Shown here one piece after another: positions 2,331 through 53,100 of a stretch of 64,000 bases of DNA; position 1 is the stretch's first letter; every line of letters begins with the position of its first letter. The stretch is from Adineta ricciae (taxonomy: Eukaryota > Rotifera > Eurotatoria > Adinetida > Adinetidae). Under the pieces are notes generated by a model. That model had not been told where the DNA came from. It saw only the letters and a list, made by a program, of their open reading frames with translations, and ran no database searches. The DNA is taken from assembly GCA_905250025.1 (NCBI GenBank), contig CAJNOJ010000065.1:62001-126000 (forward strand). The letters run 5' to 3'. A program made the translations under genes and the position numbers.

Positions 2331-2778
2331 ATGGCACCAAATCATCGATTGTTTGCTGTTAGCTGTATAACTCTTCTTCTGATTTTGATCATTTCGAAAT
2401 GTCATGCATCATATCCACTGTTTGGTGAAATACCAGGTAGATTTCGATTTGATCGAGCGTTTCATGCCAATCGGCGATTATTTTAGTTCCTCAACGTCCT
2501 GCAAAGTTTGCGACGAAGAATGATGTAGATCGTTATGTTAATCGAGTAAGTCGACAGACATCTCTCGTGCTGAATTCATCATTGATTCGAATCTAGATGA
2601 AACAATATTATGAAACAATGAAGCATTTAAGATATTGGCGTCGAGCTATCGATCAATCGGATGAAGAATACGATGACTCGTTAGAAGGTATCTTTTTGGA
2701 ATATGAACAAAAGTGATATACATGGTTCTGATTCTAGATATAATTCAACAATACAAAAATCTAAATTATAAACGCTAA
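2331..2778 (+). CDS. NPY/NPF-like neuropeptide precursor lacking the amidation glycine
   Basis: Four short exons (2331-2436, 2487-2545, 2597-2687, 2738-2778) separated by three introns of 50-51 nt give a 98-residue protein. Residues 1-26 are a clear signal peptide (long Leu/Ile core, cleavage likely after CHA). The mature part then shows the NPY fold pattern: a Pro-rich arm (YPLFGEIPVPQRP) followed by an amphipathic helix. In a 21-residue comparison with vertebrate NPY the helix keeps D, R, Y, the later Y and the final R-Y at identical spacing (DxxRY...YY...LRY). NPY/NPF peptides are normally amidated from a Gly before a dibasic site; here the dibasic site is Arg-Arg but the preceding residue is Trp (RYWRR). 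An acidic C-terminal propeptide follows, as in other NPY precursors. None of the introns falls at the Arg codon that is often interrupted in the family. Family membership is inferred from pattern; the open four-exon frame and signal peptide are seen directly. Confidence 0.7.
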
Positions 2779-3802
2779 TTATCATGTCAAATCACGAACT
2801 ATCACAAGAAAACTTTTCTTTTTCATAAAAGTCTCCGCCGTGTGTGTCATACCATCTGTGGAAATCTATGTTTTCTTTTGTTTAATACATATTCCTAGTC
2901 ATGATGATATTCTACACTCGCTACTGATTATGTTGATACATGTATTGCCAGGCCAACAGTGTGACAAAGTAATTGCTATTATTTGATCTGCTAATTTTAT
3001 CAGAGATATCCAGTTTACGCGATACATTTAATGCAAAACGAGAATATATGTAAGATAACACTGTAGGACTGACTAACGTCAAGCTGTAGGTAATGTACTA
3101 TGCAAATTCATTGAGTATTCATGAATGTTACCATATGGTGGCTGTTGCCGCTCGCCAAATTTCTGTCGGGTTTACTCGTTACTGTTTTTCACGCTTTGTT
3201 TAACATTCAAATCAACTTGTCATAGTTTGTGTAAAAAGTACAATGTCACTCTAAACTAATACACTTGAGTGCTGACAAAGACTTTGTTGCTGTCTGTTTA
3301 AACGAGTACTGGAAACCAAACTTCTATTTCCATTATTAGTGTTTCTCTTCATTATATACGTTTGTTAAACTGATAAGATTTTGTTTACTTTGATCTCGAA
3401 TGATTTTCCTCGCTCTGACATGTTGTCAATCTATTCCCAATACTCCAAATAGATCTATCAATCAATGTCAGCAGTACGTTCTGTGAAGATTTATGCACTC
3501 ATGTCAACAGAATTACTTGTTTATTTTCTCGCATTTGATTGAAAGATGAAATTTATCAATATTGTCGTTTGAAAATAATTCTTTATATTTTTGAAGAAAC
3601 AAAGCAGTCCTGTACAAAGGAACGAACAAAGAAAAAAAAGAAAAACCACACGAAAGATGTATATTAAATCTATACTTAGAATACTAGATACATTATCTGA
3701 TAATGGGCAACTCACAATCGAACACAGCATACATATACACACATGCACAAGACGTTGATAATAAAATAGAGACATCTTTTGTGGCTAATGAATAAAACAA
3801 TC
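2779..3802. other. Intergenic, no gene supported
   Basis: About 1 kb of AT-rich sequence downstream of the NPY-like gene. Open frames here are short and hydrophobic without splice context. It presumably contains that gene's 3' UTR, but no canonical AATAAA was found close to the stop. Confidence 0.4.
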
Positions 3803-4089
3803 ATGTACTGTTGTCAACGAAGAAGAGAGAAAAAGGCAATGAAGAGATATCACATGAAAATAAACTAATCGTCGATTCGTCATCGGATGTAAATCACAGG
3901 ATTTCTAAATCAGGCGTACATGAACTCTCTTCCGAAGTCATCGAAAGCGGATCAGGTGATGCCATTGGTGCACGACCTTCGCGTGATAATCGACGATATC
4001 CTGAAAGACAAAGAATGTTATCAATTGGAAAGAACAGAATTCAATTTGAATTGTTATCTTCTCTCATGCATTTGTTTTCTCGTATCTTG
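3796..4089 (+). other. Isolated coding-like open frame, possible orphan exon or gene relic
   Basis: An open frame without an ATG at its start, rich in Lys, Glu, Ser and Arg (for example RDNRRYPERQRMLSIG), reading to a possible donor (GTAAAAAC) at about 4090. The composition resembles protein more than the surrounding noncoding DNA, but no acceptor or partner exon was found. It lies just beyond the 3' end of the TRPC gene on the opposite strand. It could be a decayed fragment, an exon of an unrecognised plus-strand gene, or chance. Confidence 0.2.
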
Positions 4090-4256: not shown

Positions 4257-7200
4257 TTACAATATAGTTTCCAAAATAGCCACTTCACCTGTACCCGTCG
4301 TTGACGTCGACGTTGGAGTTAGATTTATTGACGTCGATGCTGTTGTTGCTAGTGCTGGTGTCGACGCTAGTAGTGGTGGTGGTGGTGGTGTTGCTACTGC
4401 TGGTGGTATCGTAGTAGTATTAGTAATGGTAGCAGGTGGCGATGGAGCATGTTGATGCATAGTCTGCAATATAGATGAATGTATTTGTTGTAAGCTTTGT
4501 CTGACCATTCGTGCTGTGGGACTATTCGGATGATTTGTTCGTGTTCCTGGTGATTCGATAGGTATAATCGTTGCAGGTGCTGACGTTCTATTATCAGTAT
4601 CCGTATTAGGGAAGATTTGGTTTGAACTTGAACGTATTGGTTGAGATTTGATATGACTAGATGATGGTGATTTCGGTGTCAATGTTAACGTTGGTGATGA
4701 TGATATTGGACGAGGTGAATCAACTCTTTCATGTGCTAAACAGGTTTCTTCGATTAAACTTGTCAAAATAGTCGAATCAATCAGTTTTTCGATGGTTGAT
4801 GTATGTGGCAATGAATTCGGTGGATCATTGGATGAATCACTTCGTGGTTTGATTGCTGTAATAGCACGTTTGAACTGTGTTGCTAGTTTATGTTTCGGAT
4901 TCGAAAGTATCGATGAACTCGATTCATGTTGTTCATTATGGTCAGATCTCGTTCGATCTTTCGGTATCAGAGGATTCGCATCTCGAATAGCTGTTGACAC
5001 GTTGAACATATTTTTATTGATAGTCTTTTCTAGATTCATTTTGCCTCGTTTTCGACCCACTCGAGCTGCTATGAAAGAAAAAATCAACAGATAAATTCGG
5101 AAAGTCTTTTGAAAATATCTGAATAAAAAGAGAGGATGCATTTCAAACGCATGCAATCACAGCAAAGTATGCAAAACAAAACCGCTTTATTATTTCTCAC
5201 ATCTTGTTAATGCCTCAACTGGTTCAAATTTGCCTGTGTCTAAGTTTACCAATGATGTTTCAATAGTCGAATGAAAAAAAAATCGAATGATTAGTTCAAC
5301 AAACCTGGATTTTTCTTCAATGATTGCACTTTGAATCCATTAATACTCAAGATTTCCAATAGTTCAAATCTAAAAGCAAGATTCATTGCTCAGAATGAAG
5401 AACACGCGCGAGATTCTTACCGGAATGCAGAAACATCTTGTTTGATTTCATTCAAATCGTCTTCTGTCACACCTTCGGTTTGATCTTTCTGTTGACGTTT
5501 CATTATGTATCGTTTAACTAATTCACGTATGACTGTTTGATATTTAACTTCTCGTTCGTTGATTTTCAGGAGAATTTTCTAGAAGAAATACCATCGTTGT
5601 TTGGTTTTACAAACTTCACGAGGAGTCTTATACCTTAATGCTCTGCCATCGATTCCTTAGATGCGTTTTTGAACAACCACATACTCGACGATACAAGTAT
5701 CGACAAGCATAACAAATGGATTTGGGACTTGGAACAATATTGAACGGCGGCGGCAAGGTTCCACCATCTTCAAAATAACTTGTCCAAAGTTTTGCTCTAT
5801 AATCAAAGCAGAAGTCGAGTTCTATTTAAAAAGATTATCCGAATTCTTACCTCGCAAATTTCCATTCGGTTTCTGTTGAATTCTAAATAGACATACAAAA
5901 AAAACATTTTGAGATGGTCGCATTACAAGTATTTGCTTACAGCTATGTACTGATACGAGTTACTCATCATAGCAATAAGCATGTTAAGAAGAACGATAAT
6001 CATAATTGATGAGTAAACACCGTACATCAGTAAGCCAATAAACATAGTAAATGTGTGTTTTTTATATATTTGAAATGCTTGCAGATCGATCAAACCAAAC
6101 GTACCCCAAAAAAGTGTTTGCAAGGATTCGAAGAGACTGTGGAAAGAAACGACAAATGTTGAGTAGAAATGAAAATCATCTAACGTTCGTACTTAGAAAA
6201 ATGTTTGTGTATATCTTTAGCACAAATATCATCAGAACCTGCGTCATCTTTTTCACATTCGCTCTTTTTCATTCGTGCGTAGTACCAGAATAATTGATTG
6301 AGACCGCAGGCAAAAGCAAATGCTACCAACATGATTAAGACACTGAATTTCAATATGTCGTGTACCATTCGACCTAGGGAGATTTGCAATGGCCCTAAAT
6401 GCGGATTGATCGTGAAGATGTAGACAAGTTTAAGTGAACTGAAGATATTTGCTGCGGCAAAAATTCCTTCAGATATTAGGGTAGGATCCCATGCATTCCA
6501 ATCAACTCGCCGAACATTGTGACCAGTTGAGATTCCGATAGACTCGGATGTGAGATTATGACGGACATGAGAGGAATGAGCACCTGCTGTTGTATTTGTT
6601 CCGAGAGGTACTGTTAGTTTTCGTTGTAATTCGTTCTCTTCTCGATTTATCTAAATAAAGCGAAAAGAAAACTCTTTCTATCCGATGATACTTCATCTTA
6701 ATTCGATTAGGTTATCATTTCTTATCAAACGGTTCTCTTTCTTCTTTGCTCCTTGCGGCATTCCTATTTCGTTCGAGCTTACTTTAATAAAAGCCATAAC
6801 ACGAAGAGCGATCGTTGCAACATAAAGACAATTCGTGATCCAATCAAGTAAATTCCACGTATCCGCCTAAAACAAATCTTCAATCAAATCATTCGCTAAT
6901 CATTTCGTCGTTTTCTACCATATATTGATGTAAACCTTCTTGATATAACTGTTTTATTTCCGCCCAGATGAATCCAGCTACGTAGAGCATAATCTACAAA
7001 GACGAAAACATTGTATCGTACAGAAGAAACAAAATAAACATCTTTGTAATTGGCTTACTGCTAATTCCACAGGATTAGGTGGTGGACCACGTCTTTCATT
7101 AATTTCAACTTCAGTACCTGATAGTAACTTTCCGAACTCAATTCGAAGAGAAACAACAAACAGTAAAACTAGAGACAAAGAGGAAAAGTTATGTTGTTTA

Positions 7201-10200
7201 GTAGAAAACGAATGTTCATACTTAGGAAGAAAATGTAGGAAACCGAATGACAGATGAATTTTATGAATGGTTGTCGCATGATTCGACCGATACTACTTCG
7301 TGGCATTATTAGATAAGCGATAGACAAGACAGGAAAAAGTAAACCAACAAAAGCTGTGATGAGAATTTTGATCACCGAATGACGACGTCGAAAGCCTGGT
7401 AGACCTTCGTACCACAGAGAGGCAAGTAATTGCTGACAATGTGAATGTGAAACAAACTTGAAAAGAAAAACGTACGTTAGTTATCTGAGAGTTGATCTAT
7501 ATGTATCTGATGTACCTTCTTCTGCTTATAACGTATAGCTAATTTTAGTCTGGCTAACGTCATTTTCTCGGTTGTTTCAGATAGCACCGGCGGATTTTCT
7601 GCATCGTAATTTAGAATAATTTCCAATTCCTTTGATGAACGTGTTTCAGCTAGTAGTGCTGCACTATAATCTTGACATTGCTGAGCTAATTGTTCGTACT
7701 CTTGTTTAAATTCGTTTTCAATTCGTGATAATCGTTTCAGTTCGCGATTTAAATCAAAGGCTGTCATGATTGGATCCCGACTTGATAAGGAGATGTAGCA
7801 TGGTGATGACAAGGCTTTATATGCGTTGATACGTGATCGGGAATGTCTTAGACTGTCTTCTTTATTGTAGACAAGACATTTTTCACAATCACAACGAACA
7901 TCGTGAGGTTCAGTTACTTTTTCACCTAGAAAAACGAAATAGGCAGTCAAATGAAAGCTTCGTTCTGTATCAGTAAGATTGGAATTACAAGAAAAATCAT
8001 TTCTCTACCTCTTTCCAGCAAAATCTTGATAATTTCATAATTGTCTCGATGTGCAGCCAGGATAATTGGTGTAATATCGGGTGTATATGAACGAGATGTA
8101 CTCAAATTAAGTTGATCATTCACCTAAAAATATTCATCCAAAGATCAATAGAAATCCGGATGAAATCATCTTTGTAGAAATTTGCCTATCTATTTTTCAA
8201 GTGTTCACGCACACACAAAATATAAACAATCAATCTTTATCCACAGAGTTTACTGAAGAATCATCTACATATACATAGTGAGTGCTAACTAGAAGCCTCT
8301 TTTCTCTCAGATTGATTTATCAATAAGAATATAATTATTTCGCATGAAATGAACATTTCAAAGATCAACTGGCTATCTGCTACTGAATTGTTGATGGTTA
8401 TTGTGGAAAATCTCTCGTAGAAATCTTATGTGAATGACAATCAAAAGAAACAACAAATATTAGAAGAACACTGGTGATTCGTGGAAATATGAAAGTGTAC
8501 GTTTGTGCGAAAAAAAAGATGAGCAAGTGCAAAATGTGTGTGCATGTGTTGTTTTGTGCAATAGCAGTCACAACGGGAATTATCCAATAAGTCAATCCAC
8601 TCATGCACGTCAAGAGCGAAGAAGAGAAAAAAAATCGAAGGAAATTGAGGAAATAAAGAAGACAAAAATGAAAGTCGGTCGTTTTCTTATGCGATCGTAA
8701 CGCCTACCGATTGCTGATCCTTTCTCCGTACTGCTTGTAGGAGAAAGGCCCATTTAGATTTGGAATTCTAAATACAAAAATAACAAGTCGACGAAGAAGA
8801 AGAGAGAGAAGAGAGGTCACACGGAGATACATATAAGGCAGGACATATAAGCACCGATGGATAAATAGATATATGATAAAATAATAATAATAATAGATAG
8901 ATAGATAGATAGAAAAAAAACAGACTGTCATGCTTTAAATATAGATATGTATGTATATATATTTTGTGCATGAACTGATCTCTAAACTAGAATATACAGT
9001 TGTCGATAACAGTAAGCAAATGTCAATCTTTTCATATGTTTTGTTTTCTCGAAGAAGTGAATAGCTTAGAAAGAATTCGCTTAAACAGGGATAAGAAAGA
9101 GGCAGGTAATCATAATGTAGGTTCACATAATTTTTCCGGATGATACTCATCAGTGTGAACAAACCTCCTGGTCAGATGTATCAGCAACATTAACAGTCGT
9201 GGTTATAATCTTTTCATTTCCACTAACTGTATGTTTTGCCGATAGGTTTGATTTCGATGTATGGAAGAAAGACCATGCCGATTTTGACTAGTTTAGCGAT
9301 ACGAAGTACTTTATTTACGATATATACGCAAAGATATTGATGTGATAAAGATCAATGTTCGAATGGAATTCGCTGCTCGTGCTTACCTTTTGCGAAACAT
9401 CTGGTGTTTCTTGTGGTGTTTGCTCTTCATTCTTTTTCTCCCTTTCCAGAGCGACTTGGGCAAACGAGAATAATTGATTTGATTTATCATTTATGGCAAT
9501 ATTATTTGGACACTATATCAAGACAAAGAATAAATAAACAAAACCAACATATACATAGGCAGAAATCAGAAATTGGATTCTTTTTATGTTATCTTCTTGT
9601 GATTTAATAGGTAGAGATAGTCTCAAAGGATATCCTTGACTTTTTCCTCTCCAGCCTTGACAGGCGGAAGAACAAGGCGAAGGATACCTTTGTAGATGAT
9701 TCTAATAATCTAGTAATAATAAAAAGTCTTTTTTTATTTAATTAACAATTCGAACTCAATGATAGATTACTTTTAAGATCGATATGCTTCTGTCGTCTTG
9801 CATTGCGAAAGCTTTTGCCCTCTCGTTCTCTTTCCTAATGAACTCATCTATTGTGAAATAACTTGTTGATAATATCTTTCAATGTTCGCTAGATATTAAA
9901 AGTAAATTAAATTGTGATAAATCTATTTTGCATTTTGTTATCGAGATTGTTGTCTTTTTATCAATGGAAAACATCTGACAGATTGGATAGACAAGCGCAA
10001 CTGACATATATCCTGTCAACAGGATGACGAGACTTACTTTACTTTTCTCTTCACCAGTATTATTCGTCATTGGTTTCGGTTGTTGCTGCCGAAGATCTTC
10101 GTGATGGAGAAGAAGTTCTACGGCTATTGAAACACAAGCAAGTGAATAGAAAAGTTCGCCTTCAATGTAGTTCTTCTTTACCTTCAACAAATTCTTCATC

Positions 10201-18466: not shown

Positions 18467-20655
18467 CTACGTTCGACCGCTACTTGTATTGACGAACCTT
18501 AACGCCAAGTATGCACAGAAACGAAAACAGACAAACATGCCAAAAAGAACAAGAAAATTCAAACCAATATTAATTCCATAATCAAAATATTGGAGTGCTT
18601 CATTACTAATGAATGTTCCGTTCGGATTATTTCGACACGAAACCACATAGGAGCCATCAACACATTCATACACTTGTCCACCTTTGAATTGTAATTGTAA
18701 GCATGCGTTATAAGCATACTTGAAAAACGAGAACCATTTGCCCCAAACACCCAGCCAATGTGGAAGATTTCGAACGAAGAAGCCGCCGACTAACATCAGT
18801 GTGATCAGAAGGACTGTTGCAGCTGTAATGGCATGATGCAAGTTTTTTAACGCTGCACCCAAAAGTAGACCGAGTGATTCGGCTACCAGAATGGATAGAA
18901 GTTGAAAGACAAGAATGGCAAGGAAGATGCCAAAGTTGTTGTTAATTCTCGCCATCCAGTAGGAAATGATTAGAAACATTGTTGGTAAAACCAACTTCAA
19001 GGGAGCTTCAGCTAATGATTTTGCAACAAAATAAGCTGATAAACGAAATGCACCACTTGCACGTTCCTTTTCGATAACACCACGTTCAAATGGAAAAGAC
19101 AACAGACCCATCATCAGTGTGTGTAAAGGCCAAAATGTCATGAGAAAGAAAATAAACGACGATCGATCAGGTATCGTGTCTTCTCGGAATTCCATCCGTA
19201 ACCAACACAAACCACTTATTATAGCTAAAACTATTGACTGTATAAAGTTAAGAAGAGTAAACTGGGCTTTTCCTGTTAATCGGAAACTTCGTGAATATAG
19301 AATTAACATTTGTGGCAAAAATCCGATTGGCCATTTGCCTTCACGGCCATCTGGAATCAAATTCACGTTGTCCGGATTGGTCAGATCACTTTCTTTTCCC
19401 GATGGCTCAGCCATCAAATATCGACTAGATTCTGACAATTGACTTGGTATTTGACCACTAATGATTCGATGCTGAAGGTATGCTTCCTTCAATTCTTCAC
19501 GAATTTTCATATCTTGATTAACGAGATCCATAACGTAATCTGCCGGATTGTATTGACTTGGACAATTGTAGTTCATTGTTGAAAAGTATGCGAGAGCATT
19601 CGATGGTCGACCCTGTGAATAACAATTAGTGAGTATGAATATAGCGTGTTATCAGTTTATACATACCATGAAGATGCCTTTGCCATCTGCGAGCAGAATG
19701 AGTTGATCAAATGATTGAAAGATTTGTGATGATGGTTGATGAATGGACGTGATGATTGTTTTTCCTTGCATAGCCAATTCACGTAGTACATCCATGAGTG
19801 AGACAGCTGATGTACTGTCCAAACCGGATGTGGGTTCTATACAAACGCGTACACATGTACATATAGACGAATACAATGAAGAACATTTACTAACCATCAA
19901 GAAAGATAACACTGGGATTAGTGAGAAGTTCAGTTCCGATATTGACACGTTTTTTTTCTCCGCCAGATATTAACATAATAGGAGTATTAGCACACTTTCG
20001 AATACGAAGTTGATCGATAATGTTTTCAACTTGTGCAAGTTTATCTTTTCGAGATAGATGATTGGGTAACCGAAGAAGTGCAGTATAGGTAAGTTGCTGT
20101 TTGACAGTTAAACTTTCAAAGAACAGATCTTGTTGAAGAACATAAGCAAGTTTTCGCTTCATAGCGCGATCATATAGCTGATTATTGTACCAGACATTAC
20201 CGGTGACACCGCTCAATGCTCGACCAGCAAGTGTATTCAGAAGTGTTGTTTTACCACATCCTATGAAAGAACTAGATGTGTACACATCATAGTGTGCACG
20301 TATGCCACTCACCTGATGGTCCCATAAGTGCGACAATTTGTCGGGGATGAATTTGGCCAGAGAGTTTGTCGAGAAGAGTTCGTTGAATGAACCGTTCTTT
20401 GGACGATGGATCGATCATTTTAGCCGGAACATTGATCACTTTGGAAACGTTATGAAACGTAACTGTGATGCGCGGAGATTGTGCTGCCATGATTTGCTCA
20501 CCTTCAATCGACATTTGAGTTTGTAATGTATCACCATCACGCATTTCAATAGTATATATTTTATGTTGGCCATTAGGAGTATATGCCGGCGGTTTTTCAT
20601 ACGTTGGAGCAATATACGATGGATTGATGTACGCGCTTTGATCTGCAGAATCCAT
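18467..20655 (-). CDS. ABCG (White-type) half-transporter
   Basis: Four exons (20313-20655, 19895-20260, 19667-19836, 18467-19612), 2025 nt, 674 aa. ATP-driven exporter that must dimerise; substrates in the family are lipids, sterols, pigments or xenobiotics and cannot be told here. Domain order is ABCG-typical: nucleotide-binding domain first, then six membrane helices. Visible motifs: Walker A GPSGCGKTT (about 112-120, split by an intron), Q-loop LQQD, signature ISGGEKKR, Walker [15 protein letters not shown]-loop SIHQPS and [11 protein letters not shown] after the domain. All catalytic residues look intact. The membrane part keeps the re-entrant Cys-containing loop near the end ([10 protein letters not shown]). 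An open frame continues upstream of the chosen ATG to about 20792, where an AG acceptor is possible, so an additional N-terminal exon or a longer start is open. Confidence 0.93.
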
Positions 20656-37427: not shown

Positions 37428-38383
37428 ATGAGTGATAGCAATGCAAATCATGTAGCAGTGACTGTCGAACAATCGACAGCAACTCCTGTTTCTGCACAGG
37501 CCCATGAGAATGTTGAAGCATCTACGACGGTGCAAGCAACACCATTAGGTACGAAATTGACGACGGATTGTATCCAGATAACCTATCTCCTATGTATTTG
37601 TTTTACATTAGATGGACCACCACCTGCATATGAAGCTGCTCCATCATCGAACGCTAGTGCTAATAATCCTGCTAATGTAGATGAGGCTGTAGGTGTGATA
37701 GAAGCTCCACCGCCATATTGTCTCGTCGATCCAAGTAAAATTCCCAATATGGATCATATCCCACATTATTCGCAAATAACACCTGTTGAAATTATTGATC
37801 TAAATATGAACAGTAGTGCTGGCAACGAGCAGGTAAGAGGAAGATACTCTGTTGATTTTCCATGGAATTGTGTGTCTTTTTTAGTCAAATCGTTATCATA
37901 ATCAAGCAGCGATTGCAGCTTGGCTTTCATCGGGTTCGAACATGGACATCGGTACAGATTGTACATTCCTTATGGCATTGTAAGTATTCTGTCCGTTCGA
38001 TGTCCAGTCTCGTTCAATTCTTCTTTGTAATATTTAGTATAATTGCTTTCTTTTTCAATTGGATCGGTTTTCTTGCCGTTATTTGTCTTATTCCGACCAT
38101 TGCTGCTCGTTTCGGCGCGATGTCAGGGTTTGGCTTGAGTGTCGCCAAATGGATAACCGTTGTTCGTTATCATGAATTGAATAATTCATCCTATCTTACA
38201 CCAAGTAACATGTCCACACCTTATCATCGAACTATCGTTCATGATCCTGCACATAACTTCGTCTTTGCTATCGTTTTATTTGCTGGATTCTTCTTGTTCG
38301 TTCGTGGTTTAATATCTTATATTGCCGTTAAGAATCGTGCAAATCAACATGGGCAAACAGCAGATGTTTTCAATTGGTACTAG
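37428..38383 (+). CDS. NDFIP: NEDD4-family-interacting protein
   Basis: Four exons (37428-37548, 37612-37832, 37885-37979, 38038-38383), 783 nt, 260 aa. Membrane adaptor of Golgi and endosomes that recruits and activates NEDD4-type HECT ubiquitin ligases through PPxY motifs. Two such motifs are visible, PPAY (about 44-47) and PPPY (about 73-76), in a disordered Ala/Asn-rich cytosolic region. Three hydrophobic segments follow, including the family signature FFFNWIGF and GAMSGFGLSVAKW, and FFLFVRGLISY before the C-terminal end. The family's usual third PY motif is not obvious. The open frame upstream of the ATG begins right at an acceptor-like TTTTGTCAG, so a noncoding first exon is plausible. 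Confidence 0.93.
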
Positions 38384-47151: not shown

Positions 47152-50100
47152 TTAACATGGGGTAGTTGTTTGACAATAGCGCGACTCTTTCAATGGTCCA
47201 CACCGTTTGCCACCATTACGTGATCGACGTACAGGTACACGTGTACGCGTTTGCATAGCATCTTGACCACAGCCGGTACATGATGACCAAACGCTCCATT
47301 GACTAACAACACAATCGACCGGTGCTAAAATGAATCATCATTGAAAAAATATATCTTCTAAAGGGAAGAATACATACGACAACGAATAATATGGCATGAT
47401 TGTGTCTCTTCCAGTTGTATCGATCGACAACGATGATCATCAACATGATGAGTGATTAATAATGTTCGGCTACGACGTCGAATACCGTTCGGTCCACATG
47501 TTACTGAACACTCACTCCATTCACTCCAAGGACTTGTCGGACATGATCGATCAGTGCCTGCAAAAGAAAAGTATTGAAATGTTATTTGATTTTCAATAAT
47601 CTTTACCTTCGGCAAGAAAACTTTTACAGGCAGTCTCACATTCCATTTTATCAGCGAAATTGTTCTTGTTATTACCACGGGCCGGACATGAAGTGAATGG
47701 TACGCATGACATGCTCGTCTTATTGTAATGATAACGTTGTAAACCACGGCATCGATTATCTTCAGCTGGTTCGGACATGCATCGATCTAGATAGTTGATT
47801 GTGAAAATTTGATAGAACGTTTTCTTGTATCTAGGTTTACCTTTATTCTCATTTTTGTTGCAATGCATCGAATCTGCGCCTTGACATTGACGTTTTTCGA
47901 TCAAATGAATGTCTTGGCATTGAGGATCATGATGTGAATTACCATTGATAAACCATCGTCGTCGTTCTGTAGCTCCTTGACCACATGATACAGAACATGG
48001 CGAGAATGATGACCAGTCAGTCACAGCACATCTAAAACAAGATCTTTTAGATTGGAAAGTAAAACGAAAGCAATTCATTTACTGTGCAACTTGTTGATTA
48101 TCGTCGTCACAATCATCACCTGATCTTTCGTAACACATTTCGCTTTCACTTAACCGTTCATTACATCCGTTGTGATCCCGATTTTTGTACATTCTAAAAA
48201 CAGAAAATCCATTCGAAAATGTTGTGCAAGACAAGTGTAGAAAGCCAACCTTGTTCGTGTTCGTAGACCATTTCCACATTTGACATTACAAACACTCCAT
48301 TCTGACCAAGGTGATGTCATACAACGAGGATCAGCCGATTCGTCTTCTGCAAACATTCAGACTATTTAATAGAAAAGAGCAGTGAGTGAAAAAAAAGGAT
48401 ACACACCAAGTAATTCAACGTTCGATTTAGCGACTTCTTTGTCGTTCTCGACTTCGTTTGTACGACTCAAGTCGACAAAATCTGGACCAAAGTCAATAAC
48501 TGACGGTGTTTCCGTATGCTGTGGACGACCGCTTGGACATGATACACCTTGTGTCATCACCCGTTTAATACTCAATTTGGCAAATGGTGGTGGCTGTTGA
48601 CCTAAGTATTCAGAAAACAGAGAAAAATCAGTATCAACCTATTGTTTTGTTTAATGATCGTACCAAAGAATGGCGATCGATTGTCGGTAATATTGCTTGA
48701 AAGAATCGGTGTAATTGGTTTACGATGATGTTCTGGGCGTTTTGGTCCCTAACGAAATATGAAATGTACATTCGGTTAAAAATTATCAAAAGTTTCATTT
48801 ACATTGTAGCGAACACCCATGTCAGTTCCTGCGTCAAATGGATGAAGTAATTCTTCGTAGCTATCTAACCAGGTGCAATTTGGAAGACATAAGTCTAAGC
48901 CGGACACACCTAGTTAAGATAATGAAAATGCCAAGTAGATTTTTGTTTTGTGCAGAAGAAAAACGAATCGAATTACCAGCAACCCAATCGGGTGACGGTC
49001 CAAGCATTGTTACAAACGATAAGAAATGATGGTTTCTCGATGATGTAAAGGCACCTGTAGTAGCTTTTGTAACATTAACTGTCCATAGACCAGGTATGAT
49101 CATTATGTTTCGAATGACACCAAACTTGGTCTGAGAAAAAAAAACAGGAACAGTTTTGGTTTCGTTCTCAACTAATCAGATTTTTAGAATAAAAAATCTT
49201 ACGTGATTTTTTATTTCTTTCTGCATTGTTCCAATGGCACCCCATTCGGCAACTTGTTTCAAACCATCGCTAGCAATCTCGCCATAGTTCCACACTAGAT
49301 TACAAAAGAAATGTAGAAGCTACGACATTTTTCTATTGCAATCAATTACGTGAATATTCTTGACTATGGATAGCTCCAATCAAATCAGACCAATGGAGAA
49401 GATGTTCTACAAAACGGCAGATATATATATTACTTTCGATAGGGATAGTATTTACCAGGTGGCCAATCTTTTGGATGCGTTTGTTTCGACCACAAGCCTT
49501 GAAATGTTATTTGAAATTTCGCTTCGTCGCATGCACAGCAAGGATGACGAGGTCGAAAAGTGGCCTTTGGCATATCTATAGAAATTAACTGAATGTTCAT
49601 AGGGAAATTTGTATGCTGTCTTTACCTGTCATCATTTGTTTATGTTTCATAGAATTACCATTGCAGTCAATGGTACATGATTGACGCTCTTCCAAAACTT
49701 CCGTACAGTGACCATGCATAGCAGCACGCTTGTCTGCATACATTCTTGTTCGAGTTTGCGTACCTGGTCGATGACATGTAGCGTTCGAACATGCTGACCA
49801 TTCACTCCATATTGAAACAAGACATCGTGGATCGTGAACCACTATGAAACAAGAAAGATTCTATAGCAGTTCTTCTACGGTATCAATCAGACATACTTGA
49901 TTTATGGTCTTGAATGAGTTCATCGCACATTGCTTCGCATTCTTCGTGTGTCATGAAATTATTGTCATTGCCTATGCAAATTAGACTTCCAGTAGTTAAA
50001 TTAAAATGCATTGTATCTCTACCTCGACATCCACCATATGAAAATTTAGTACATTTACGTGTTGTACCATCGAAATAGAATCGATCGATAAATTTGGTAC

Positions 50101-53100
50101 ACGGACCAGGTTCGAGTGGATGCATACATTTCTCTAAAATAGCACAAATATTCTGATCATTAGTTGAATACGTTCTCTTCGATAACCTACGTTTTCTTTC
50201 AGCAGCTTCCATGCTTTTAATCATTGTTCGTCGTGTGTCTGATAGACGATACATTTGTGCTGGATCGCAAGGTGTATGACAATCACGAAATTCTTCTAAT
50301 GGTTCCGAACAAAAGCCCATTGCTAGAAATTTGACTTTGTATGCACGAAATCGAACTTGCGTGCCGGGTCCACAAACAGACGAGCAAGCGCTCCATTCAG
50401 ACCAGGGCAAAGTCATACAGCGTGTATCTTTGCCATCCTCTAAAAATATAAACGTATTATTCAATATATTTGTGTTAAATAGAATCCGAATTCAAACCTG
50501 TGCGTCCACGTAATAGGATGTCGCATGTATCCTCACATACGTCTCGTGTAAGAAAGTTATTGTCATTAGCACCACAACCACTGTAATCAAATTCTAGACA
50601 TTTACTCATGTCCAAATTGAAATAGAAACGACGTTCATATTGTGCACATGAGCCGACTTCGAGTGATTGCATGCAAATACGTTTTTTCTCGATCATATCT
50701 GTTAAACGGCCTTGTTCACAGAGAGGCTTCATTCCAATACAGGACTCTTTTTCCATCAATTGATACTCCGATCGGCATTGAGACTTGTCGCCACCTTTGA
50801 GCATGGTACGTGATCGAGTACGCATACCTTCGCCACATGTAACTGAACAATGAGACCATGCTGACCAGTCGCTAACCATACACCTAAAGTCAAGAGTAAT
50901 TTACTTGTAAAGAATGTTTTAACAGAAGATTTCGGAGCTTTACATCGAAGTATCCAAGGAATGCGGATGGTTATTTGTCATCATTGATGAGCATGATGTC
51001 GAGTGACATGAAGCCATATCATAAGTACGTTCATCGCAGTGATGACGGAAAGCTTTGTCCGGCATAAGATACGAACGTCGTCGTGTTTTGATGCCATGAC
51101 CACAAGTAACCGAACAGGATGACCAGGGCGACCATTCGGTTAAACGACATTCAGGTGTTGAGGCTTCTTCTACATAGTAGAGTAAGAAAAATTGTAGTTT
51201 GCTAGTAATCTAGTTACCATAAGCGTAAACTAATCTTCCTGAATGATCGTATTTTTGTTTCACTCGTTCATTTCGATGATGCACCTGTGAGAGATCAACA
51301 TCAGGAGATGATTCTTCACGGTGATGATGATTTGTTCGTTGAGAATGTTGTCTACCATTCTGATTATTTGGACACTGAGTTCCACGGACCAGCGTACGTT
51401 GAAGTGTAACGCGGGCAACAGGCATTATTGGTTTACCTACTCGCACAGAAGGCAATGCAATTAAAAAGCACAGTGATCCCAGAACTAACTCATTGGATCA
51501 TGAAAAGATGATGTTGGAGAGATGGTACCAGTGATTGCGTGAATTTTCTCCAATGGCACTGTCGGCAATCGACCAGACTGAAATCAAAGTTCATACATAG
51601 GTATTTGCATGAACGCAAATCGAATCCATTGAATTTACTGTATATGTTGTTCCACTATCAATTCCAGCATCCAATGGATAAAGATCTTCCGAATATTGTT
51701 CAACCCATGTACAATTCGATAAACATAAATCTACTGCATTGACTCCTATAAACAAACAATAGAAAATATTTTCAATCCAATTCATTCATGATTATACGCG
51801 ATCAAAAGAAAGCATTACGAAATAATGAAGAAAGCATATATACCTGTGAACCAGTCAGGACTGGGCGAGATTTTGCTCACAAAACTCAATTTAGGATGGC
51901 GAGGAGAAACAGTAAATACATTCATTGCTGATGACATTTCATTAGATGACATTTTCAAAGGTCGAGCAAGTATTAAACTACGAATAACACCATTAAATGA
52001 CTATAACAAACAAAAAGCACTGGATCACATATGTATACAACATCAATGAGAAATACAAGAAGACAACACGAATACAATAGGAATTATGTTGTACATTGTG
52101 AGAACAATCTACCTATGAAAGAATCAGAGGATTTTATGTTTTCATCTATGTATCTGCTGACAAGAGATAGACGATGAAAATCTCGATTCGCTCGAATAGC
52201 TTGGTACCACCATGAGCCAGACATGAGAAAACGCAAACCAACTGAATCACTTTCACGTTGCTATTTTAATTTTTGTAAAGAAAATCAATAGTTGACAAAA
52301 GATATCTTCGTCATACTAACTTCATTTGCTAGATCTTGTTCAAGTGCGTGAGTATCACCAGTGAGAACTAGCTGACTTAAACCACGATTAGCATATGCAC
52401 CAATTTCAAATAATGAATAATTAGAATTATGAACAGCACCGACAGTTGTTGAGAAATGAGCTTTTATAAAAATAGAATTCCATGTTTTATAAGATCAAAC
52501 GAAGTTTTCTCTTACCTGTTGTTGCTGGCCAGTCTTTTTTGTGCGTCTGTGGTGACCAAAGTCCTTTAAATGTTAATTGATATTTGGCTTCACCACAAGC
52601 ACAACATTGTTGCATCATTTTTTTCATATGCATTTCTGAAGAAGAAAACAAAGCAATTCTTGTTATACTGACATATAGCATTGCGTATTCCTTGGCATAC
52701 TAACGATCTTCACACATGGTATAGGTTAACGCATTATCATCTTTGAACCAAACCGTATCCGATCGTACTACAGTTGCTCTAAACACAGTAGTTTTGTACT
52801 GTTTCACCTGCTCTAGTCCTTAGAAAGACAATATCTACTTGAATGAAATACATCCCTGCGGATGACGTGGTGCAATCCAATCGACAGAAATCGAATTTTT
52901 CAATTTATCTGGATTCGCATCTGTAACACCGCCAGGACAATTACGTTGACTGATGATCGCTTCTTGCGTTGATTCGTCATTTGTATGCGTCGATGGTAAT
53001 AACTCAAATTGTCCGACTGGACGATAGGCTTGATCATCAGACCATGTTGATGGTACAGCAATAAGCATAAATTCTTTGAACGATGACTGATACGTTTGAC

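Follow-up and report, generated by a model that had tools for sequence, protein, structure and literature searches.

A predicted NPY/NPF-like precursor with a non-amidated tryptophan end beside an amidable duplicate in a rotifer genome

The gene at positions 2331-2778 of the window, that is, of the whole 64,000-nucleotide stretch of DNA analysed here, is best explained as an intact NPY/NPF-like precursor. Its peptide would end in a non-amidated Trp, beside a duplicate gene whose peptide also ends in Trp and is amidable. This reading is considered moderately probable. The window gene is referred to as E1 and the duplicate as E2.

The 98-amino-acid product of E1 (MAPNHRLFAVSCITLLLILIISKCHASYPLFGEIPVPQRPAKFATKNDVDRYVNRMKQYYETMKHLRYWRRAIDQSDEEYDDSLEDIIQQYKNLNYKR) comes from a spliced model of four exons on the forward strand. 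Exon 1 (2331..2436) encodes a signal peptide of approximately MAPNHRLFAVSCITLLLILIISKCHA, judged by eye, and the mature start SYPLFGEIP, and ends in phase 1. Exon 2 (2487..2545) encodes the Pro arm and the beginning of the helix (PQRPAKFATKNDVDRYVNR) and is identical in the copy on contig C6. Exon 3 (2597..2687) contains the helix, the C-terminal segment MKQYYETMKHLRYW, an Arg-Arg site, and the start of an acidic C-flank, whereas exon 4 (2738..2778) contributes the end of the C-flanking peptide (...IIQQYKNLNYKR) and a TAA stop. Intron 1 (2437..2486; 50 nt, GT...AG, phase 1) and intron 2 (2546..2596; 51 nt, GT...AG, phase 0) have positions and phases common to types B, C, and E2 of the family described below. 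Intron 3 (2688..2737; 50 nt, GT...AG, phase 1) is absent in E2, whose frame stops earlier. An earlier note on this DNA had described a four-exon gene with this frame and the order Arg-Tyr-Trp-Arg-Arg, which the sequence and spliced model confirm. Its three introns are also present in the model, but their lengths are 50, 51, and 50 nt instead of 50 nt each.

The codon at 2636..2638 is TGG (Trp), flanked by TAT and by CGT CGA, and encodes the probable last mature residue. It is the same in the C6 copy, and Trp is also found in E2. The next codon (2639..2641) is CGT (Arg), the counterpart of GGT in E2, which encodes the amidation Gly. CGT CGA (2639..2644) forms a putative Arg-Arg prohormone-convertase site. 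Alternative splicing of E1 was examined with donors at 2633-2700, acceptors up to 2800, introns of at least 35 nt, and GT-AG sites only; GT occurs in exon 3 at 2640 and 2680 only. Trp follows Tyr in all six combinations, so that the restored Gly that the note had envisaged was not obtained.

The C6 copy, an apparent allele, has 93% DNA identity with the window gene and the same codons, and its frame and splice sites are intact. Over the segment that runs from Val-Pro-Gln to Arg-Arg, the two alleles differ at 0/108 bases, and elsewhere at 30/340 (17/189 in the CDS and 13/151 in introns, leaving out a 3-nt indel in intron 2; Fisher p 0.00026). Synonymous changes in the peptide are also zero (approximately 22 sites). 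Because these synonymous differences are absent and the split was chosen after the gene had been seen, the identity is moderate evidence, and chance or gene conversion may have added to it. The whole-CDS dN/dS of the alleles is 0.36. The degraded allele proposed earlier does not agree with an intact homologous copy that encodes an identical peptide, and E1 does not appear to be simply a broken allele.

E2 (L030) is an intact gene of 82 amino acids (MALYRPYLILSLTICLFLIFSSCQAYQLFRDISIPNRPIKYHVLSDSDRNIDRMKQYHDTMAQLKHWGRSVDEFDNGNDNNL) on the minus strand of C1 (C1:1035918-1036290), with exons at 1036191-1036290, 1036069-1036127, and 1035918-1036007 and introns of 63 and 61 nt. Its match in the initial genome search was weak (C1:1035918, E 0.0056), and a DNA search of the genome found no other near copy of it. 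Its two introns match introns 1 and 2 of E1 in position and phase. A blastp comparison of E1 and E2 gave 41% over 80 residues (E 1.3e-23), and a downstream neighbour (window 3654-3987) is common to both. Because of the same introns and this common neighbour, E1 and E2 look like two sides of a duplicated block. They are also alike in having a signal peptide and a helix end of the form MKQY(Y/H)..TM..L(R/K)(Y/H)W. In contrast, E2 has an amidable Gly-Arg after Trp where E1 has Arg-Arg, its C-flank is shorter and lacks intron 3, and 17/36 peptide residues are identical. The remaining 19/36 residues differ, with dN/dS 0.61 at dS 0.65, suggesting that the long-term constraint on type E is weak.

The E2 precursor reads ...LKH-Trp-Gly-Arg with codons TGG GGT CGA, whereas the window reads TGG CGT CGA. 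Because Gly-Arg comes after Trp in E2, Trp is most likely the last residue in both peptides. In the simplest alignment of the sequences, Trp would end both, with E2 amidated and cleaved at Gly-Arg and E1 cleaved at Arg-Arg. The change is therefore placed one codon away from the GGG to TGG replacement of Gly by Trp that had been claimed, as E2 has Trp and then Gly; it likely lies between GGT and CGT in the codon after Trp and not in the Trp codon. The accompanying claims fared better: an amidation codon was lost by apparently one base change (CGT in E1 vs GGT in E2), and the Trp ending is indeed unusual (LRYW in E1 and LKHW in E2). The predicted Trp-amide end of E2 (LKHW-Gly-Arg) is itself unusual.

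An alternative considered is that Trp occupies the former Gly column and that E2 acquired, by chance, a Gly following it, which would then not be the old amidation site. Counted from Tyr-Tyr, which is fixed by an intron, E1 and E2 have nine residues to Trp, and types A and B have eight to Phe. Because type E has this one residue more, a gap-free alignment puts Trp in the Gly column. However, the Trp-Gly-Arg of E2, taken alone, is an ordinary amidation and cleavage site, and when the copies are aligned at the last residue, the peptide is followed in 14/14 by Gly or Arg and then by Arg or Lys, which makes this alternative quite unlikely. A Trp in the Gly column, maybe derived from Arg, had come from an ungapped alignment and from trees without E2, and was dropped given the intact E2 with Trp-Gly-Arg.

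The family was searched in the window's own assembly (130.5 Mb, 1033 contigs), and the family counts are lower bounds. Hand-made gene models gave 14 copies. Type A comprises C67 (L003), C214 (L004), and C31 (L005), which end in ...ARPRF-GKR, and type B comprises C28 (L011), C392, and C16, which end in ...GRPRF-GR. Type C consists of C1:609 kb (L012) and C13, with ...GRWRV-RR and ...GRWRS-RR, respectively, and type D of C110 (L006), C163 (L007), and C80 (L008), with ...K[I/V]KLV-RR. Type E1 is found on C65 (the window) and C6 (...HLRYW-RR), and type E2 on C1 (...LKHW-GR). The residue after the peptide is Gly in 7/14 copies and Arg in the other 7/14 (the E1 pair and types C and D). Gly-Arg becomes Arg-Arg in the copies without Gly, and Arg-Arg is present in 7/7 of them. 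Within the 14 copies, RPRF-Gly is found in types A and B only. Classic NPF genes (type A), with a phase-2 Arg-codon intron and ARPRF-Gly-Lys-Arg, coexist with the Gly-less types. The apparent allelic pairs C65/C6, C163/C80, C214/C31, and C392/C16 have whole-CDS dS values of 0.09-0.12.

Synteny was compared for C80/C110, the type C pair C1/C13, and E1/E2. C80 and C110 have a common downstream gene, and in C1/C13 the common gene within 10 kb is the peptide gene alone. The CDS of the type D genes (C110, C163, and C80) has no intron, whereas their relatives have two or three, and an acceptor-like TTTCAG (CTTCAG in C110) lies immediately 5' of ATG. This looks like intron loss via a retrocopy; alternatively, the acceptor could belong to a 5' UTR or to trans-splicing. 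In type B C28, the NPF peptide is followed in the C-flank by an EF-hand-like loop (DVNGDNSIAPDEF; 22.8 bits to PF13405, cut-off 25), and a similar loop is found in the C-flank of type C C1 (DINHDHIITKSEF; 20.0 bits). In the Pfam scan, no EF-hand match was found in the C392 and C13 precursors.

Several matches were not counted among the 14 copies. Two of them, C50 and C33 (L017 and L018, minus strand), are allelic-looking open frames with a weak NPF-like stretch (PPKFNPWQDYRAYLDQVKTYINRLNPY), which in C50 scores 18.8 bits against Hormone_3, above the window protein's score. In these frames no signal peptide and no basic site directly after the helix were seen, and they could be a further relative or chance. 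C18:527631 (E 0.14) was also left out. C71, C681, C74, C129, C395, and C2 were read in frame, and no precursor was recognized by eye.

Against Pfam Hormone_3 (PF00159), E1 scored 16.9 bits, under the cut-off of 28.7 bits. In the nine of the 14 copies scanned, types A (34.6-36.2 bits), B (51.3-51.6), and C (31.0-32.7) passed, and type D (25.3-25.4) was below the cut-off. Exon 3 of E2 alone matched no Pfam family, and a phmmer search of the window peptide against PDB gave five matches, none of which was NPY or NPF. Type B matched tapeworm NPF in PDB (E 0.00048). Profiles built from the paralogues were then compared with shuffles of the post-signal part. With the profile of six amidable A and B members (C67, C214, C31, C28, C392, and C16, some rows being near-identical), the window protein scored 18.1 bits, which 0/20,000 shuffles reached (best 12.0). 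When types C and D were added (11 paralogues), it scored 29.8 bits, again with 0/20,000 (best 12.4). These scores uphold the NPY-family resemblance described earlier. That description was to be given up if sister copies also had Trp and the helix match disappeared among homologues; the allelic copy does read Trp-Arg-Arg, but the helix match persists. The score of E2 against the A+B profile was 1.6 bits, which 550/20,000 shuffles reached and which is no match above chance, whereas it scored 23.6 bits against a 13-member profile (0/20,000 shuffles). Because it fails the former and passes the latter, E2 is tied to the family only via the window gene.

In the C-terminal region, the amidation Gly is absent in both E1 alleles (CGT, Arg) and present in E2 (GGT). 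The RxRF/RxRY motif is absent in E1 (LRYW) and E2 (LKHW), and a basic cleavage site (Arg-Arg) follows the peptide in both E1 alleles. For the PP-fold, in which the Pro arm packs on the helix, AlphaFold2 was run on the type D copy C110 only, and it gave a coil and a helix from residue 38 with low confidence (overall 57.8, pTM 0.31); the blocks within residues 31-50 had pLDDT values of 79 and 84.

A hallmark of NPY/NPF genes is an intron between bases 2 and 3 of the RF/RY Arg codon, which is conserved over several phyla in the available parts of PMC8536682 and PMC7314547. Type A has this intron; it is missing from B, C, E1, and E2, as well as from D, whose CDS is intronless. In types B, C, and E, a phase-1 intron lies just ahead of the Pro arm, and a phase-0 intron precedes the Tyr-Tyr/His helix turn. 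Without the hallmark intron, types B, C, and E may not be strict NPY/NPF orthologues, and the window gene is best called NPF-like and not an NPF orthologue. In PrRP-type genes, a phase-1 intron near the peptide N-terminus is stressed as a feature in the part of PMC7314547 available. E1 has this pattern, with the phase-1 intron 1 at IP|VPQRP and none in an RF/RY Arg codon, but it ends in LRYW and not in the amidated RPRF of PrRP-type peptides. It is conceivable, although unlikely, that types B-E are NPY-like but belong to a separate lineage, as with the echinoderm NPY-like peptides that were re-assigned to PrRP/sNPF by their introns; the phase-1 intron near the N-terminus of B, C, and E and their missing phase-2 Arg-codon intron point this way (PMC7314547). 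Against this, type B scores higher to Hormone_3 (51.3-51.6 bits) than classic NPF (34.6-36.2 bits), has a Pro arm, and matches tapeworm NPF, and introns can be lost and gained.

Constraint was strongest in types B and D. In the type D peptides of C110 and C163, 13 synonymous and 3 nonsynonymous changes were found (dS 0.81, dN/dS 0.04), and C110 vs C80 gave dS 0.53 and dN/dS 0.06. Elsewhere, dN/dS was 0.03 in amidable B, 0.12 in A, and 0.24 in C. Up to Arg-Arg, 35/38 residues are identical between C110 and C163, compared with 16/52 aligned residues after it. Type D is thus offered as a firm case, as judged from its sequences, for a Gly-less peptide in use. These values bear on the proposal that E1 is a degraded gene that has lost amidation and is drifting towards a pseudogene. 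RFamide free acids lose most of their activity or potency in the part of PMC4058657 available, and the dN/dS of 0.61 between E1 and E2 would fit such decay. However, frames and splice sites are undamaged in E2 and in the two E1 alleles, these alleles encode one and the same peptide despite their differences elsewhere, and type D, which is also Gly-less, is strongly constrained, making degradation decidedly improbable.

The Gly-less paralogues may alternatively be secreted cationic helical peptides, for example in host defence, that are no longer receptor ligands, as with full-length PYY in Paneth cells. The net charge is +5 in E1 and +6 and +4 in type C, versus +2 in A and +3 in B, and E1 and E2 have diverged fast. 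PYY1-36 is described as antimicrobial in a charge-dependent manner (PMC10878018, available part). Such a role is doubtful, as type D has the same charge as amidable type B (+3) with similar helix moments (0.32 and 0.30), and its near-invariant peptide (35/38) resembles a specific ligand.

A tree was built from 38 hand-aligned columns, with the Gly column left out. E1 and E2 group together (97), then with D (98) and then with C (80), and B is outside and paraphyletic. The placement of D+E and of C is the same in earlier trees without E2, in which an arrangement with two losses could not be rejected (AU 0.12). In topology tests, C+D+E together was not rejected (AU 0.54), whereas E outside B+C+D (AU 0.008, but SH 0.145) and C with D alone (AU 0.046, SH 0.227) fared poorly. 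On the tree with E2, the Gly and Arg states require either three losses (in C, D, and E1) or a single loss followed by a regain in E2, the latter being more parsimonious than three losses provided that the tree is correct. In both scenarios, the codon would have flipped more than once in the family, each flip taking one base (GGN/CGN), although the direction of change is inferred from the sequences.

In the proposed processing, the E1 precursor would enter the secretory path, and the signal would be removed near Ala-26. A cut at Arg-70/Arg-71 with trimming would release a peptide of approximately 43 residues, with a Pro arm, a helix, and the end ...HLRYW as a free carboxylate, alongside the amidable ...LKHW peptide of E2. 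Replacing Gly by Arg at a Gly-Arg site like that of type B would remove the amide donor and at the same time create the dibasic Arg-Arg cut, and the same would apply to types C and D. The cleavage of E1 is itself a prediction from its sequence, and Arg-Arg might be unused, with a precursor that acts uncut or is cut elsewhere. This is very improbable, as Arg-Arg is present in 7/7 Gly-less copies and the conservation of type D drops right after it. Because related receptors read amidated ends, the processed E1 peptide most likely has a receptor that has diverged, or a role that has changed. In NPY-family peptides, the amide is considered necessary for binding to the receptor. Docking places the NPF C-terminus in the receptor (PMC8536682, in part).

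A PHM-type amidating enzyme is encoded in the genome (C371 exon, E 1.3e-18). C94 is PHM-like by eye only, and C61 (L039) gave a dopamine-beta-hydroxylase-like monooxygenase match in the family search. C18 (L034) and C152 (L037) were rejected as amidating enzymes, as they are dopamine-beta-hydroxylase-like in comparison with PDB. Within the window, exons of a TRP-type channel with TRP_2 and Ion_trans domains lie downstream of the peptide gene at a distance of a few kb (6183-8004, minus strand). The window also contains ABC transporter exons (18470-20414, minus strand), a NEDD4/Bsd2-domain frame (37856-38380, plus strand), and TSP1/Kunitz-domain exons (47596-50491, minus strand).

To our knowledge, a Trp end is new to the NPY/NPF family. 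In the literature listings and paper passages covered, neither a rotifer NPF nor a non-amidated NPF paralogue was described, and there was no account of these genes. The parts of two publications that were available described Gnathifera as lacking deeper neuropeptide sampling (2021; PMC8557429) and Rotifera as among the groups yet to be explored (2018 review; PMC5818035). It can be suggested tentatively that sister NPY/NPF-like genes switched repeatedly between amidated and free-acid products via one Gly/Arg codon, and that -RYW, -KLV, and -RWRV/S free acids have stayed in use, the first of them alongside a duplicate that ends in Trp-amide. If true, there would be receptors able to read a carboxylate or Trp end where the amidated RF/RY end is thought to be indispensable. 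An amidable and non-amidable duplicate pair sharing Trp would be a natural experiment on a change in a key peptide-receptor contact, to which two more Gly-less types, one of them strongly constrained, would add.

Compared with known systems, E1 is like NPF/NPY (PF00159) in its signal peptide, Pro arm, Tyr-rich amphipathic helix, basic C-terminal segment, basic site, and acidic C-flank. It is unlike them in having no amidation Gly, LRYW instead of RxRF/Y-NH2, no Arg-codon intron, and a Pfam score below the cut-off. Type B shares with E1 the positions of the phase-1 and phase-0 introns and the PxRPxxF...Y helix. However, type B ends in GRPRF-Gly-Arg, and its C-flank is EF-hand-like, as scored in C28. 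E1 has a Pro arm shorter by one residue and one residue more before the end; it ends in Trp, has Arg in place of Gly, and contains a third intron. The starfish PrRP-type or "NPY-like" peptide, unlike E1, is amidated and lacks the long Pro arm and Tyr-rich helix. Anglerfish peptide YG and seminalplasmin are non-amidated. In Platynereis, the WI peptides are non-amidated relatives of the amidated Wamide/MIP family (PMC3890597, available part). Like E1, they are a non-amidated paralogue of an amidated neuropeptide family and serve as a precedent, although they belong to the Wamide/MIP family and not to NPY/NPF.
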